Of a stretch of DNA of 64,000 nt, positions 3,922 to 33,828 are shown piece by piece. Made by a program: the position numbers and the translations under genes. How positions within the stretch are numbered: the first letter of the stretch is position 1; each line of letters starts with the position of its first letter. The stretch lies in NCBI GenBank assembly GCA_026706485.1, contig JAPOYR010000002.1, positions 186,001 to 250,000 on the forward strand. The letters run 5' to 3'. The stretch comes from Chloroflexota bacterium. GTDB lineage: Bacteria > Chloroflexota > UBA11872. The notes under the pieces were generated by a model, which was not told the DNA's origin, did not search any database, and saw nothing but the letters and a program-made list of their open reading frames with translations.

Positions 3922-5166
3922 ATGAGTACGCCTAGTTGGACAAAGCGACCGCGAGGGTTAGTTCGTTCTTCCACCCGACGAATCCGCCGTTGGCGCCGTC
4001 GCGCATTTGCGTTCGCTAGGACTGCTCGGGGTGTGCGCAGCCTCATTGCGCTTCTGGCCGCAGGCCTCAGCGCTTACGTCCTGACCCAAGGTTGGGAGTC
4101 CGAGGTCGCCGTGACTGGACTCGTGCTGCTCAGTATTTCGGTTGCGATCTTTCTAGTCACCATCGCGCCTACCCAAGCTACGAGAGTATGGCGAGCTATT
4201 GACCACCGGGCGAGTAGCGTCCTAGATGTCATCTTCGCTTTCGCCGAAGCCCGCCTGCGCCAACTCACGGTTATTGCTCTTGCATTAGTCACGGTATTGT
4301 CGATTGCCTTTTGGGGATGGCTCATTTCAGGCAGCGAGCTTCGCACTGAGTCTCAGGGAAGCCAGCAGACGATAATTCGCACAGATACGACCGAGTCAGG
4401 AAGCACGACATTTCGTAATCTGAGCCTAGTTTTCGCTGCGCTACTCGCCTTACCAATTGCGATTTGGCGCACACGCATCGCCCAGCTTCAGGCGACCACG
4501 GCCCAGCGTGAGCATCTAGATAGCCTATACCGCCAAGGCGCTCAAAAGCTCATCGACAAAGACCTTTCGGTTCGTCTAGAAGGCGTCCACATCCTTGATC
4601 GACTCGCCAAGGACGAGCCAGAGCGATATCACATTCAGATTATGCGCCGACTGTGCGGATTCTTGCGAAACTCGAGAAGTGTGCAGCATGTGACCATTGA
4701 CCTCCAGGAGGACGATCGAACCGTCGCTGAGTCGATCCGTTCGCGCGGAGAATCAGGTCGTAGAATTGAAGAACAGTCGCATTTCACGCTTGACCTCAAC
4801 CTCACTAACTTGAAGGGCGTCTGGTTCAACCGCGCAGTACTAGCGCGCGCAGATCTTTCTTAGACTCGTTTAGAGGACTCCTACCTAAACTATGCGGACC
4901 TATCAGATGCGGCCTTATATGGAGCCAAACTTGGTGGCGCTGATTTCCATGATGCAGAATTGACGAATGCCAAGTTTTCGCTGAATGGCGATTATCCGGC
5001 AACTGGTTTGACGCAAGAACAACTTGATGGTGCGTGGTGCGAAGAGGGCAATCCCCCTATTCTAATTGGTGTCAAAGACGCAGTCACAGGAAAGCAACTC
5101 ACACCACCAACACGACGGATGTCGTTCAGAACGTATCTTGAGAAACTGAGATCAGAAATTGACTGA
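3922..5166 (+). pseudogene. Membrane-anchored pentapeptide-repeat protein interrupted by an in-frame amber codon
   Basis: The reading frame from ATG 3922 encodes several N-terminal hydrophobic segments (around residues 36-57, 60-85, 113-136 and 168-190), then a helical region, then pentapeptide repeats. TAG at 4861-4863 (codon 314) stops translation in the repeats, yet the same frame continues without further stops to TGA 5164-5166. The central Leu/Phe of each five-residue unit keeps its spacing across the TAG: VL, ADL, S-stop-TRL, YL, ADL, AAL, AKL, ADF, AEL, AKF. The lesion is therefore one substituted sense codon, not a frameshift. Base composition is visibly lower in GC than the neighbours, suggesting acquisition. 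The gene begins 16 bases after the restriction-modification gene. Function is unknown; a truncated 313-residue product is still possible. Confidence 0.8.
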
Positions 5167-25674: not shown

Positions 25675-26643
25675 ATGGCGTCCTGGTCCCGATTGGTCTG
25701 GCTGGCCGCACTGGCAGGCGGCGCGTGGGCGGCGACGCGCGGTCGGCCGCAGCCGTTTGACGTGGAATCGCACCTGGACGGCGGGACGCTGCGGCCGATA
25801 TCGGAGGGACGGCTCTACCACCGCGCGGTCGGCGCCGGACCCGACCTGGTGATGCTGCCGGGATTCGGCGGCAATGTCAGCACCTGGGAGTTCATCACCC
25901 CGCCGCTGGCGGAGACCCATCGCGTGCACTGGGTGGACCTGCTCGGGCACGGGCTCTCGGACAAGCCGGCCGCGGCGGACTATGGCGCTCCCGCGCAAGC
26001 CGAGCGGCTGGACGAGCTGCTCCGCGCCGAGGGGCTCGAGCGCGTGGTCATCGTGGGCAGCTCCGCCGCCGGGCAGCCCGCCGTCGCCCTGGCCGCGCGG
26101 CATCCCGACCGCGTGGCGGGGCTAGTGCTGGTCGATCCCTTCCTGGTCGCCGGGCCCGGGGTTCGCCTGGGCATCTGGCTCAGCCGGCAACTGCCGGGCA
26201 CGTCGGGAATCATCCTGCGCACCCTGAGCGCGCAGCGATGGTACGTGCGCCTAAGCAACATGATCGGCCGCCGGCATCCGCTGAGCGTGGACCGGGCGAC
26301 GGTGGACCGGCAGTACCTGCCCTATGGCTCGCCCGGATTCCTGGACGCGCTGCCCGCGCTCCTGGCGGGCGTCGATCCTGCCCCGGCCCAGGCGTCGATC
26401 GGCGAGGTCGAGTGCCCAGTGCTGTTGATCTGGGGCGCCGCGGATCGGCTGGCCGGCCGCGGTCAAGCCCTGGCCCTGGCGGCAAGTTTCCAGGACGCCG
26501 AACCCGTGATCCTCGAAGACGCCGGCCATGTGCCCCAAGAGGAAGTGCCCGAACAGGTGGTCGCCTGCATGCGACCGTTCCTGGACCGCGTGCACCGCGC
26601 GAGCCACTCGCAGGATGGTCGGGGAGTCGCGCCGCCGGGATGA
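25675..26643 (+). CDS. Alpha/beta hydrolase
   Basis: 322 residues. A short hydrophobic N-terminus ([14 protein letters not shown]) may anchor it in the membrane or serve as a signal. The oxyanion segment VMLPGFGG (about 61-68), the nucleophile elbow GSSAAG (about 126-131), the acid in WGAADRL (about 257) and the catalytic histidine in [10 protein letters not shown] (about 286) are in order. This is the esterase/epoxide hydrolase/haloperoxidase-like fold; the substrate is unknown. The ATG has CGAGG seven bases upstream. Its end overlaps the start of the uracil-DNA glycosylase gene by 29 bases. Confidence 0.88.
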
Positions 26644-27340
26644 GGCGCGGGTCGCCGCGCTCACCGAGCTGGAAGAGCGGATCGCCGCCTGCCGGCGCTG
26701 CCCGCGCTTGGTGGCCTGGCGCGAGCGGACCGCGCGTGAGAAGCGCGCGGCCTATCGCTCAGAGACCTATTGGGGGCGACCGGTGCCCGGCTTCGGCGAC
26801 CCGGCGGCGCGGATTCTCATCGTCGGTCTGGCGCCCGCGGCGCATGGCGGCAACCGCACCGGACGGGTGTTCACTGGCGACCGCTCCGGCAACTTCCTCT
26901 TCGGCGCCCTGCACCGGGCGGGTCTGGCCAACCAGCCCACGAGCACCCACCGAGGAGACGGCCTGCGGCTGCGCGACGCGTTCGTCTCCGCCACGGTGCG
27001 CTGCGCGCCGCCCGCCAACAAGCCGACCACCGAGGAGCGCGAGACCTGCCGCAACTACCTGGAGACCGAGCTCGACCTGCTCGCCGACATCCGCGTGATG
27101 GTCGCCCTGGGCGGCTACGCCTGGTCACAAGTGCTGCGCATCTGCCGCGCCCGGGGGGACTCGCCGTCGCCCACACCGGTCCGATTCGGCCACGGCGCCG
27201 AGGTCACGCTGGGCGACCGAACGCTGCTCGGGTCGTATCACCCCAGCCAGCAGAACACGTTCACGGGCCGTCTCACGCCGGACATGTTGGATGCCGTGCT
27301 CGAACGGGCGGTGGCGTTGGCCGGCGAGAACGCTCGCTAG
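26615..27340 (+). CDS. Family 5 (UDGb) uracil-DNA glycosylase
   Basis: 241 residues from ATG 26615; the frame is open further upstream but only as a shadow of the hydrolase. Four cysteines, C26, C29, C130 and C145, fit the [4Fe-4S] cluster of family 4/5 glycosylases. Motif A reads [19 protein letters not shown] (71-89), the UDGb form that lacks the usual catalytic Asp, and motif B reads [16 protein letters not shown] near 211-226. The enzyme removes uracil and other deaminated bases from DNA. Overlap with the hydrolase gene suggests translational coupling, without an obvious functional link. Confidence 0.93.
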
Positions 27341-29792: not shown

Positions 29793-29798
29793 TATAAT
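29793..29798 (+). promoter_or_regulatory. Perfect -10 hexamer upstream of the unknown four-gene operon
   Basis: TATAAT stands alone in very GC-rich sequence between mnmG and the operon. No good -35 is present 16-18 bases upstream. A start near 29805 would give a leader of about 45 bases. Confidence 0.45.
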
Positions 29799-29849
29799 TG
29801 GCGTCAACGTTGGCCGGCCGATCGTTCCGTTGGTCGCGCTCCGGAGCCC

Positions 29850-30587
29850 ATTATCGTTACCAGCGGGCCTGACTTCACCACCCAGGTCGTCGACGCGTTC
29901 GTCGTGCCCACCGAAACCGGGGCCGCGTTCTTCGTCGATGCGGACTACACGGAGTTGGACGCCGCCAACGGGCCGGTGCAATTGGCCATCTACAGCCCCT
30001 ATGAGGTGTCGCCGGGCGAGGTCGCCGTGGTCCGCGGGCGTCTGGAGGCGGACCTCTTCAGCTACGCGGCGTCGGCGGCTGGCTTGGGACGGGCGTGGAT
30101 TCGCCACGCGCTGCTGGCGATCCTCGAGCTCACGATTCTCGGGGTGCTCATCGCATTCCTAGTCGCTAACCCATCACGCGTCGCGTTTATCGTCGGCTGG
30201 GCGCTGCCCTTTGGGTTCTTCATCGCCACTCGCTCGGCGCTGCACGCGTTCGCGCAGCGCGAGTACGGCGCGCGCGCGCGCCGCCTGTTGGAATCCGGGG
30301 CGGTGCTCGCCGAGCCGGCCATCTCGCAGTTCGGCGGCAGCCTGGCCCACGTGCGCGACATCTGGCGCGGGCTGGAGGAAGGCGCCTTTGCCCGCGACAC
30401 GGTGGCGCTCGAGCTCGCGTCCGAGCGGCTGTTGCGCTGGCCCGGGGCCGAGGCGTTCTATCGCTCCCAACGTCAGGCGGACGAGCCCTCGCAGCCGCGG
30501 CCGCTGCGAAGTCGGCTGAGGCGCCTGCTGCTTCCCAAACGGCCCGTCGCCCCGCTGACGACGCTCGTCGCTCGACCCCGCCCATGA
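29850..30587 (+). CDS. Unknown protein with two central membrane helices (first gene of a four-gene operon)
   Basis: About 245 residues are convincing as coding: a beta-rich N-terminal part (VDAFVVPTETGAAFFVDADY; VSPGEVAVVRGRLEADLF), two hydrophobic helices (LLAILELTILGVLIAFLVA and FIVGWALPFGFFIAT), then a basic and helical C-terminal part ending RLLLPKRPVAPLTTLVARPRP. The start is uncertain: the frame has no ATG, GTG or TTG between 29727 (inside the promoter region) and a GTG about 19 codons further in. GGAG at 29843-29846 sits just before ATT/ATC codons at 29850/29853, so a rare start is possible. It overlaps the next gene by four bases. I cannot name a family. Confidence 0.65.
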   Translation: MIVTSGPDFTTQVVDAFVVPTETGAAFFVDADYTELDAANGPVQLAIYSPYEVSPGEVAVVRGRLEADLFSYAASAAGLGRAWIRHALLAILELTILGVLIAFLVANPSRVAFIVGWALPFGFFIATRSALHAFAQREYGARARRLLESGAVLAEPAISQFGGSLAHVRDIWRGLEEGAFARDTVALELASERLLRWPGAEAFYRSQRQADEPSQPRPLRSRLRRLLLPKRPVAPLTTLVARPRP

Positions 30588-31369
30588 TGCAACTGGTGTG
30601 TTGGGCAGTCCCTGTGCGCGGCGGCTATGTGTTGCGCGCCGATCAGTCGGCGCACGCCGCCGTTCGGGCCGCGGACGGGCGCCGACCGCAATTCGTGGAC
30701 TGGGCCGTGGCCATCGTGCACCCCGGGTCGTCGGGCTTCTCCGCGGCGCGAGTCCACCGGCCAACCGTCCTGGCGATCGAGTCGGCAATGCGCCGCGGCG
30801 CGCCCACGCGCCCCAACCGCGCCGGACGCCTTGAGCGCCTGCGCCGCTCGTGGGCATCGCTGGCGCTGGGCGCGGCGCTGGTGGTGCTTTCCGGAACGCA
30901 CTGGGTGCTCGCGCTGGCGGGCGCGTGGCTGCTCGCCGGGCGCCCCTGGATGTCGGCGCTGCTGGGGATCGGTCGGGCGGACTCACCCGCCACCGCGTGG
31001 ACCGCCGCCGACGTGCAGGTCTCCGCCGCGCCCCACGCGGGCCTCGGCCAGGTCGCCGATGCGCTGAAGCGGGCGGCTGACGACGCCGGCGGCTACGGGC
31101 AGGCGTTGGCTGCCGCCCAAACGCTGGGGCTCGACGATGCCGCCGAGGTCTACTCGACATTGATCAAGCATCCAAACCCAATGGCGCTGCCGGTCGAGGT
31201 CGGCATGTGGACGCCAGCGGCGTCGGTCGAAGATCGAGCCCTGGGCGGCGTATTGCCGGATGTCGCCGAGACGCCGGACCCGCCGGGCGAAGGCGCCGAC
31301 GCCGTCGCGGAAGCCGAGGTCGAGCCCGGTGACGAGGCCTCCGACGATCCAATGGACCGCCTGCCATGA
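30584..31369 (+). CDS. Unknown membrane protein (second gene of the operon)
   Basis: 261 residues. A small N-terminal domain (VCWAVPVRGGYVLRADQSA; FVDWAVAIVHPGSSG) leads through a basic stretch (MRRGAPTRPNRAGRLERLRRSW) to two short hydrophobic segments (about 87-104 and 106-128). A soluble region with helical repeats such as GQVADALKRAADDAGGYGQALAAAQTLGLDDAAEVY and an acidic tail rich in Glu, Asp, Ala and Pro follow. Its ATG overlaps the preceding stop as ATGA, and its own stop overlaps the next start in the same way, so translation is coupled on both sides. No family is recognised. Confidence 0.7.
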   Translation: MMQLVCWAVPVRGGYVLRADQSAHAAVRAADGRRPQFVDWAVAIVHPGSSGFSAARVHRPTVLAIESAMRRGAPTRPNRAGRLERLRRSWASLALGAALVVLSGTHWVLALAGAWLLAGRPWMSALLGIGRADSPATAWTAADVQVSAAPHAGLGQVADALKRAADDAGGYGQALAAAQTLGLDDAAEVYSTLIKHPNPMALPVEVGMWTPAASVEDRALGGVLPDVAETPDPPGEGADAVAEAEVEPGDEASDDPMDRLP

Positions 31370-32268
31370 TTTCGACGGGGGCGCGGAGCCTCGAGATCCC
31401 CATGGACATCGACCGGTTCACGGACAGTCTGCGAGGCAGCAAGTGGCGCGAGATTCGCCAAACGCTGGGCGACACCTACGAGGTGAGAACGCTGTACGAG
31501 GGTCCGCTGCCGGGCCTTCCGCGCGCGCAGGTCGTCCGACTGTCATCGGGCGATCCCGACAGCCCCATCCGAATCCTGTTTGACGCCGTGCCTCTGAGCC
31601 TTTCGCGGCCGGTGCTGGTCGCCGGTCGCGCGGTGACCCGGGTCTTCACCTCGCGCGCTCGCGAACGCGCCGAGCTGCTCGATCGCATTGCCGTGCGGAT
31701 CCACGTGATCGAAGTCGACGGCGACGCCGCCGATATCCCGCCGTTGCCGCTCGCGACTGGACTCGATGGCGGCTTGCGTCTGGCGCACAGCGTCGCGAAT
31801 GAGGAGGCGTGGAGCGCGTTGCGCGAGTCGGTGCAACGGTTCCGGCCGACGCTCGCCATGGACCTGCGCGATGCCGGGGCCGCGGTCCCCGACGCGAACC
31901 TGGCCCTCGTGGTGCATAGCCTCACGCACGCGGCCGGTGCAACCGACGCCGGGGCGCTCCCCGGAACGACCGAGGGCAGGGCCATCGCCCGAGACGTCAG
32001 CCGTCGCGGCATCTCGCCGTACCGCGGAACCTCGCGCGAGCGCGCGGCGGCGGGATTGCGGCAGTTCGGCAACGGCGCCCTCACGCGCATGAGCCCGCGC
32101 GACCCTTCGCGATCGGTGGCCAGCCTCGCGACCGATCTCGTCGCGGCCGTCGGGATCACGGCGCTGTCATTGGGGCTGCGGGAGCTCGACCGAGCCATCG
32201 CGCTAACCGAAGCCGCGGGCGCGGGCGTGGACGAGTCCATTCGCGAGTTTCGTCGCATGGGGGCTTAA
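31366..32268 (+). CDS. Unknown soluble protein (third gene of the operon)
   Basis: 300 residues with no clear transmembrane helix; one mildly hydrophobic stretch (LVAAVGITALSLGL, about 262-275) may be a buried helix. The N-terminal half alternates strands and loops (RTLYEGPLPGLPRAQVVRL, IRILFDAVPLSLSRPVLVAG), and the C-terminal half is helical and arginine-rich. I recognise no motif or family. It overlaps the gene before it by four bases, and the gene after it begins immediately at its stop, so all four products are probably made in fixed proportion and may form one complex. Confidence 0.7.
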   Translation: MISTGARSLEIPMDIDRFTDSLRGSKWREIRQTLGDTYEVRTLYEGPLPGLPRAQVVRLSSGDPDSPIRILFDAVPLSLSRPVLVAGRAVTRVFTSRARERAELLDRIAVRIHVIEVDGDAADIPPLPLATGLDGGLRLAHSVANEEAWSALRESVQRFRPTLAMDLRDAGAAVPDANLALVVHSLTHAAGATDAGALPGTTEGRAIARDVSRRGISPYRGTSRERAAAGLRQFGNGALTRMSPRDPSRSVASLATDLVAAVGITALSLGLRELDRAIALTEAAGAGVDESIREFRRMGA

Positions 32269-33783
32269 GTGGCCGGGGAAGGACGACCAGCGCAAGCCGC
32301 CGGCCTCGATCCCGTGCGCCACGCGCCCAGCATTCCCGTGGAGTACGCGCCCATTCCGGTTGGGCCCAACGACACCGAGTTGGTGGCGCACGACCGGCAC
32401 CGCTTGAGCGACGCCCTGGTGCGTGGGATTCCCGTCGCCCGCACGCTGCGAATCGATGAGCTTCCCGACGACGTGGCCACCGTTGCCCGGATCGAGGTCG
32501 GCGCCATTCGCCGCCTGCGGCAGGCGGCGCGGGCGGCCCAAGCGCGCCGCTGGCGGGTCTATGTGGCGGCGGCCGGTCTGCCCTTCCTGACCGCCACCCT
32601 GCTGGGCCTCCTGGGCGTGTGGCTGGGCACGGTTCCGGTCATCGGCGAGCCGGTCGGCGGGTTCGTGGGCACCGCCGGCGGCAACGTGGGTGGGCTGCCG
32701 CTCGCGGCAATCATTGCGGCGCTGCCGTCGGTGTGGTGGATCCGGCGCGTTCGCCGCGCGTCGCGGGCCGCTCCGCAGCCCAACCTGCGCCAGGAGTCGG
32801 TGGCGACGAGCGAACTCACCGTCAACGACGACCTCGGGCCGTTCCTCGCCGACGCGCGCGAGACGATGCGTGACATTGGCGGCATTCTGAGCGGCAACCC
32901 GCGACCCGGCGGCGAACAGGCGCACCGTCTGGCCATCCGATTCGGCGCGCTGGCCCGCATCGCGGCGCGGCACGACGTGCCGTCCGTGGTTGCCTTTGCC
33001 GCCGACGCCGGCGAGCAGTTTCGCATCGCGTCTCAGCCGCCCGCCCGGCTCATCCCCGGCCTGCGCCTGCGGCGCCGGCCGGCCAGCGTCGTCAAGATCC
33101 TCGCCCCCTATATGCAGCGGCGTGCATCGAGGATGCAAGCACGGGCATCGCGTCTGCTGGGAATCGCCAGCGGGCTGGTCGTCGCGGCGGCCGCGTTCTT
33201 CGTCGCCGGCGTCTTTGGCATCCGAGGCGACGAAGCCCTGCTGTTGCGAACGAACGAGGCCATCGTCTTCCCGTCGTCGGGCACCGTGCTCGCGCTCCGG
33301 CATGGATTCGACGGTCCCGCGGAGTCCGGAACGAGCACGCTCACGGTGGTGCAAGGCCCCGGCATCTTTTGGAGCTGGCCGCGGCCCATCACCGAGCGCC
33401 GCTTGGTGCCGCTCACCAACCGCGCGCTTGACATCGCGGTGCCATTCCCCGGCGATCCTCCCGGCCAACATTTGAATGTCGAATTCCGCTACGAGATCGA
33501 CGACCTGAAGTCATTTGTCGCCACCATGGAGTCCCTCGACGAGATCGACTCGGCGCTGGCCCGGGTGGTTTCCGCCGAGCTGGCCAGGGGCTTTGCCGAT
33601 CGCTACGCGACGGAGCTGGCGTCGCCCAACGCATTGCCGGCGCCGTTCATCGTGGCCGGTCTCCAAGAGGGCGCCGGCGAACTGTTGGGGAATTTTGTCG
33701 AGTTCTCGGAGACCAGCGACGCATTCGCGATGTTCGGGGTGACGCTGCGGCCCGAGCCGTCCCACAGCTTCTCGCGCGACTAG
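32269..33783 (+). CDS. Unknown membrane protein with possible SPFH/HflK-like outer domain (fourth gene of the operon)
   Basis: 504 residues, started by GTG directly after the upstream TAA. Three hydrophobic segments lie at about 97-121, 142-158 and 296-316. The region after the third helix (about 355-450: VVQGPGIFWSWPRPI, then LNVEFRYEIDDLKSFV, then SALARVVSAELARGF) has the order and spacing of HflK/HflC or prohibitin domains, where a PG-x-HW-x-PWP turn is followed by strands and a helix. That similarity is my own reading and is weak. The middle loop (175-295) is helical and arginine-rich. Function is unknown. Confidence 0.7.
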   Translation: MAGEGRPAQAAGLDPVRHAPSIPVEYAPIPVGPNDTELVAHDRHRLSDALVRGIPVARTLRIDELPDDVATVARIEVGAIRRLRQAARAAQARRWRVYVAAAGLPFLTATLLGLLGVWLGTVPVIGEPVGGFVGTAGGNVGGLPLAAIIAALPSVWWIRRVRRASRAAPQPNLRQESVATSELTVNDDLGPFLADARETMRDIGGILSGNPRPGGEQAHRLAIRFGALARIAARHDVPSVVAFAADAGEQFRIASQPPARLIPGLRLRRRPASVVKILAPYMQRRASRMQARASRLLGIASGLVVAAAAFFVAGVFGIRGDEALLLRTNEAIVFPSSGTVLALRHGFDGPAESGTSTLTVVQGPGIFWSWPRPITERRLVPLTNRALDIAVPFPGDPPGQHLNVEFRYEIDDLKSFVATMESLDEIDSALARVVSAELARGFADRYATELASPNALPAPFIVAGLQEGAGELLGNFVEFSETSDAFAMFGVTLRPEPSHSFSRD

Positions 33784-33821: not shown

Positions 33822-33828
33822 TAATAAT
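33822..33828 (+). promoter_or_regulatory. Candidate -10 element placed for leaderless transcription of the RodZ-like gene
   Basis: TAATAAT ends six bases before the ATG at 33835 in a GC-rich gap. A transcript starting seven or so bases downstream of the element would begin at or next to the start codon. No Shine-Dalgarno sequence is visible, which agrees with a leaderless message. Confidence 0.4.

Follow-up and report, generated by a model that had tools for sequence, protein, structure and literature searches.

The DNA analysed here, referred to below as the window, is a stretch of 64,000 nucleotides (positions 186001-250000 of contig 2) of a 3.37-Mb Chloroflexota genome (G000). Between mnmG and rodZ it carries, on the forward strand, a cassette of four tightly packed genes, which we designate g1 to g4. 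The first two, g1 (29850..30587) and g2 (30584-31369), encode membrane proteins of about 245 aa and 261 aa, respectively; g3 (31366-32268) encodes a protein of 300 aa from an orphan family, and g4 (32269-33783), which starts with GTG, a protein of 504 aa. The coordinates of g2, g3 and g4 agree with those of a preliminary description of this DNA, which had read the locus as a translationally coupled operon, and we could confirm this coupling: g1 shares the four bases ATGA with g2, as g2 does with g3, while at the g3/g4 junction the TAA stop codon is followed by GTG without any gap. When 11 order-level loci (f1/f2) were tabulated, the 4-base g1/g2 overlap was seen in 10 and the exact g3/g4 abutment in seven, and because of this recurrence the coupling of the genes is not a matter of chance. 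The dN/dS values within the genus ranged from 0.06 to 0.31 for all four genes, which means that each of them is under purifying selection.

The first gene and its start codon

The identification of g1 draws on its homologues, hydropathy, the analysis of its start and its paralogy with g2 and the N-terminal half of g4. The gene itself was borne out, with one correction: the codon at its stated start, 29850, is ATT, and no NTG codon is available. In the genus of the window there is no in-frame ATG, GTG or TTG between the putative -10 box of the cassette promoter (TATAAT, 29793..29798, forward strand) and the conserved DAFVVPT start of the protein. A TATAAT/TATACT-like hexamer lies at a similar distance upstream of the first gene in relatives of the family, in surroundings that have diverged; a generic sigma-70 promoter scan requiring a -35 box found no cassette promoter. 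All 19 family sequences that we compared have an ATC (29853 in the window) at an identical codon position shortly before the DAFVVPT motif, and a putative ribosome-binding site, GGAG (29843..29846, forward strand), stands 6 nt ahead of this ATC. This arrangement of GGAG, six bases and ATC was noticed in 18 of the 19 sequences, and the remaining one (L037) has an in-frame stop three codons upstream. An in-frame GTG near the g1 start also occurs in some genomes of genus 2, and more distant relatives have ATG or GTG. We infer from this conservation that g1 probably starts at a non-standard codon, either the ATC at 29853 or the ATT at 29850; the coupled operon would then open with a conserved non-standard start codon. 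A non-standard start, GTC, which is controlled by IF3, has been described for sigR (PMC5472188).

Occurrence and gene order in the class

Using class-wide profiles we searched 41 species genomes of this small class, which returned g1 and g3 in 33 genomes each and g2 and g4 in 32 each. The apparent absence of g2 from one genome (G024) was filled by a divergent g2 found with the profile at about 4500-5028 of locus L263; its long, low-complexity C-terminal tail, with repeats of the PPATDTPP type, was the reason that the genome search had missed it. All four genes are thus present in 32/41 genomes, three genes in a single fragmentary one, and none in eight, the gap in g4 being that of G039, an 81%-complete genome. 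The eight genomes without the cassette are G040, which is 77% complete, the six of f4, and G021. In G021 mnmG and rodZ are direct neighbours, which makes this locus an empty site. Among 359 other Chloroflexota genomes we noticed no convincing relative of the cassette, the two marginal matches being to parts of g4.

Throughout the order the genes are arranged as mnmG, g1, g2, g3, g4, rodZ, and this arrangement also recurs in relatives within the class such as G030, G034 and G038. In G006 mnmG lies elsewhere and g1 to g4 remain together with rodZ, and in two f3 genera (G024, G026 and G032) g1 to g3 stand by mnmG and g4 stands by rodZ at another place, both parts having been retained. The survey of gene order proposed in the preliminary description found the four genes kept together in related genomes, and clear matches to unrelated families, which would have spoken against an undescribed system, were likewise not found. 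Its further claim of one functional unit is upheld by the all-or-none occurrence taken together with the conserved coupling. Occurrence and gene order show the cassette to be a genuine unit, passed on vertically within a single class of Chloroflexota.

Some observations on neighbourhood and habitat may be added. A flagellin-like gene was noticed a few kb before g4 in two genera of f3 (L045 6679-7578 and L160 612-1508), suggesting that in the f3 branch g4 has a different neighbourhood, perhaps with motility genes. In the window, past mnmG, an ORF at 26528-27340 reads from its motifs, on sequence alone, like a uracil-DNA glycosylase. Among named records the nearest relatives are MAGs of Chloroflexi/Chloroflexota such as COS3_bin_17 (JAPOXD010000009), whose g4 is 98% identical. 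The bin names of these MAGs (COS, RHO) suggest sponge hosts, and many members of the class are probably sponge symbionts. The class may be UBA2235, which has been reported from coral-reef sponges (PMC8163846).

Relationships and domains of the four proteins

Three of the four proteins had been described as having membrane helices, and hydropathy agrees with this, giving two helices for g1, one (perhaps two) for g2 and three for g4, with borderline stretches only in g3. No convincing PDB match was found by sequence search with any of the four profiles. Library searches left g1, g2 and g3 without a match, as the preliminary description had supposed when it assigned them to no known family. Isolated weak Pfam hits to SLATT_1, S_4TM, CrgA, Tweety and DUF4229, none of them seen in more than two members, we regarded as noise arising from composition. 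A defence or phage origin was considered and rejected, as there was no PADLOC or PHROG match; for anti-phage defence in particular, no PADLOC model matches any of the four proteins.

A relationship that the preliminary description did not contain emerged when the proteins were compared with each other. The g1 profile matched the N-terminal part of g4 (residues 1-262; 32269..33054, forward strand) with p=7.8e-7 over 196 collinear columns and the g2 profile with p=6.7e-6 over 189 columns, and g2 matched the N-terminal part of g4 with p=1.7e-4, while the control comparisons were all 0.009 or weaker. By these profile matches g1, g2 and the N-terminal half of g4 are paralogues. All three are built alike: a short N-terminal domain, which carries a motif resembling DAFVVPT.TG, is followed by a membrane hairpin and then by a helical domain. 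In g1 the small N-terminal domain carries the motif DAFVVPTETG and the helical domain is predicted to be cytoplasmic. The layout of g2 resembles that of g1, and its C-terminal tail is acidic and probably disordered. In g4 the hairpin occupies residues 99-158 and is followed by the helical domain, for which a cytoplasmic location is likewise predicted. The loop at residues 159-296 of g4 contains 25 K/R versus 11 D/E, and its C-terminal part 14 versus 26; under the positive-inside rule this charge pattern is predicted to put the helical domain inside and the SPFH domain outside.

The C-terminal part of g4 (33136..33783, forward strand) consists of a third membrane helix at residues 297-315, which directly precedes an SPFH domain at about residues 320-504. 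Pfam Band_7 matched residues 358-446 with E=4.8e-4 and 20.7 bits, just below the curated cut-off of 23.6, and a Band_7 match was noticed in 8 of the 19 members of the class-wide g4 alignment. The alignments available for structure prediction held 16 sequences and the resulting models were weak: full-length g4 was modelled by AlphaFold2 with a mean pLDDT of 46, about the last 120 residues lying mostly above 70 and the region of about 380-504 mostly at 67-85. In Foldseek the nine best PDB matches of this model were all SPFH proteins (HflKC, mouse stomatin and P. horikoshii stomatin), headed, at a probability of 0.93, by one chain of 7wi3, the FtsH-HflKC complex of E. coli. The target TM-scores reached 0.59; as no more than roughly the final quarter of the model can be relied on, the E-values exceeded 0.1. 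A profile built from 22 canonical SPFH proteins of the class also matched the C-terminal profile of g4, the preceding membrane helix included, with p=1.1e-6 and a probability of 91%, while the controls (reversed ones as well as g1, g2, g3, the N-terminal part of g4, rodZ and pgsA) gave 0.09 or weaker. The agreement of Band_7, Foldseek and profile-profile comparison supports the earlier SPFH reading of the last gene, and on these several lines of sequence and model evidence the C-terminal domain of g4 is an SPFH domain. A C-terminal coiled coil, which serves oligomerisation, is typical of stomatin, flotillin and HflK/C. In g4 no coiled coil follows the SPFH domain, the protein stopping with the final strand of that domain as modelled; the canonical SPFH proteins of the class run tens of residues past it. 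Since the genome of the window has two canonical SPFH genes elsewhere, the cassette is an addition to the normal SPFH set and not its sole SPFH system.

The third protein stands apart. g3, whose hydrophobic stretches are only borderline, is probably soluble or peripheral, and its AlphaFold2 model had a pLDDT of 34. It matched nothing in Pfam, NCBIfam, PDB, PADLOC or PHROG, and its profile showed no similarity to g1, g2 or g4. By these comparisons g3 is unrelated to the other three cassette proteins and without a recognisable relative. An alignment pattern had brought up a degenerate M14/AstE zinc carboxypeptidase as a candidate, which profile-profile comparison rejected: against 30 AstE/M14-like proteins of the class hhalign gave a probability of at most 0.1% and p of 0.65 or weaker, with both sub-groups.

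Known systems and the proposed function

HflK and HflC belong to the SPFH3 family and form an FtsH-associated cage. With them g4 has in common an SPFH domain that follows a membrane helix; in g4 this domain is predicted to lie outside the cytoplasm. It differs from them in having an extra N-terminal module of about 290 residues (the hairpin and the predicted cytoplasmic domain) and no C-terminal coiled coil, and the cassette has a single SPFH gene with three extra partners in place of a tandem pair. Within the class, tandem HflK-HflC was found only in the six cassette-free f4 genomes and in two f5 genomes, which have both systems; this distribution, which represents one or two evolutionary events only, hints at functional overlap with the cassette. 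Two loci, L248 and L251 (G034 and G029), were noted for tandem HflK-HflC.

The prokaryotic stomatins and flotillins of SPFH1, SPFH2 and SPFH5 have NfeD partners, and in members of SPFH5 the SPFH domain is poorly conserved and escapes most programs (PMC2636767). They resemble the cassette in that an SPFH membrane protein is encoded in a conserved operon with dedicated partners, and SPFH5 does so also in the poor conservation of its SPFH domain. The cassette differs from them in topology and partners and has no coiled coil; nor does it encode a partner of the NfeD or ClpP-like kind, Pfam having given no such match for g1 to g3 and their relatives. The pspA-ydjGHI operon of Bacillus subtilis includes two membrane proteins, by which an SPFH protein and PspA are anchored (PMC8581546). 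Compared by layout, both operons encode an SPFH protein, two membrane proteins and one soluble partner, but the cassette is without PspA (no PspA/ESCRT-III-like Pfam match was found for g1 to g3), its SPFH protein is multi-pass and its membrane partners are paralogues of that protein. By the features tested, then, the cassette belongs neither with HflK/HflC nor with the stomatins, the flotillins or the systems that have an NfeD partner.

The reading we prefer, which in our judgement may equally well hold or fail, is that the four genes encode one membrane assembly, a hetero-oligomeric complex that would act as a scaffold or in quality control, its SPFH domain facing outwards. In its favour we count the all-or-none occurrence, the conserved junctions, the purifying selection, the SPFH evidence, the paralogy, the charge distribution and the distribution of tandem HflK-HflC; against it stand the poor models of g4 and g3, the missing coiled coil, the canonical SPFH genes elsewhere in the genome and the very small number of independent gains or losses behind the relation to HflK/HflC. 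g1, g2 and g4 would each insert a membrane hairpin and keep their N-terminal and helical domains on the cytoplasmic side, and g4 would add the third membrane helix and place its SPFH domain outside the cytoplasm as in HflK/HflC. As a soluble or peripheral partner, g3 would probably attach to the domains on the cytoplasmic side. If it behaves as SPFH proteins do, the assembly would oligomerise, and it would surround or organise either a membrane patch or an enzyme of the membrane. Its synthesis would be set at the first gene, where a non-standard start may limit it, and passed on by translational coupling, so that the subunits may be made in a fixed ratio. According to PMC12624060 and PMC12048511, SPFH proteins form rings, cages or domes which organise the membrane or confine membrane proteases, and it is for this reason that a scaffold or quality-control role is our best guess. 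A more elaborate version of the preferred reading can be offered only tentatively and is unlikely: a class-specific machine, in which a triplicated hairpin family captured an SPFH domain and an orphan soluble protein, would work alongside HflK-HflC or replace it, with its output gated by the AUC/AUU start.

The cassette might instead serve as a sensor and relay of envelope stress, g1, g2 and g4 sensing the state of the membrane and recruiting g3 as the effector. The encoding of an SPFH protein together with dedicated membrane and soluble partners has its published precedent in pspA-ydjGHI (PMC8581546), and a limited first start codon would fit conditional expression, as in the sigR GTC case (PMC5472188). 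We nevertheless consider such a relay unlikely, as the cassette has no PspA-like protein, g3 has no recognisable effector domain, and its SPFH domain forms one protein with the membrane part and is predicted to face outwards.

The preliminary description had also linked the cassette to RodZ and PgsA and perhaps to envelope structure, and this special tie was not supported. An accessory role in cell elongation, connected with RodZ and the synthesis of phosphatidylglycerol, has in its favour that g4 adjoins rodZ in the order-level loci inspected and remains by it even where g1 to g3 are elsewhere. Vertical inheritance alone accounts for such a common neighbourhood, however, and rodZ has its own promoter: a -10 box, TAATAAT (33822..33828, forward strand), lies 6 nt before the rodZ ATG, and an ATAAT box 5-7 nt upstream of this ATG is kept in 11/11 genomes of the family checked. 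A -10 box at 5-7 nt before ATG is typical of a leaderless transcript, and rodZ apparently forms a separate transcript of this kind which bounds the cassette; a single operon of the cassette with RodZ/PgsA was rejected on this ground. rodZ is also present in cassette-free genomes, G021 with its adjacent mnmG and rodZ among them. Because rodZ has its own -10 box and persists without the cassette, the cassette probably lies outside the rodZ operon; RodZ and PgsA are probably mere neighbours, and we regard a role in elongation as very unlikely. Least probable of all, and given little credit by us, is a set of lineage-specific proteins with separate minor roles that share only a promoter, for while g1 to g3 have no known domain and the cassette is dispensable, being absent in 8 genomes, the strict co-occurrence, the retention of all parts after their physical separation, the conserved overlaps and the paralogy of three members all speak against it.

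SPFH proteins are organisers of membranes in all domains of life; to our knowledge, the roles of most bacterial members are not established, and we know of almost no study of the cell biology of these uncultured symbionts. In the libraries and papers searched the cassette is undescribed, a known domain in a new arrangement, and g1, g2 and g3 are three families new to the libraries used. In this class an SPFH protein of unusual layout comes with three co-inherited, dedicated partners, two of them paralogous to it. A wider survey of genomes can test directly for the possible trade-off between the cassette and HflK-HflC, and the four proteins are a well-defined set for expression and purification as one complex.
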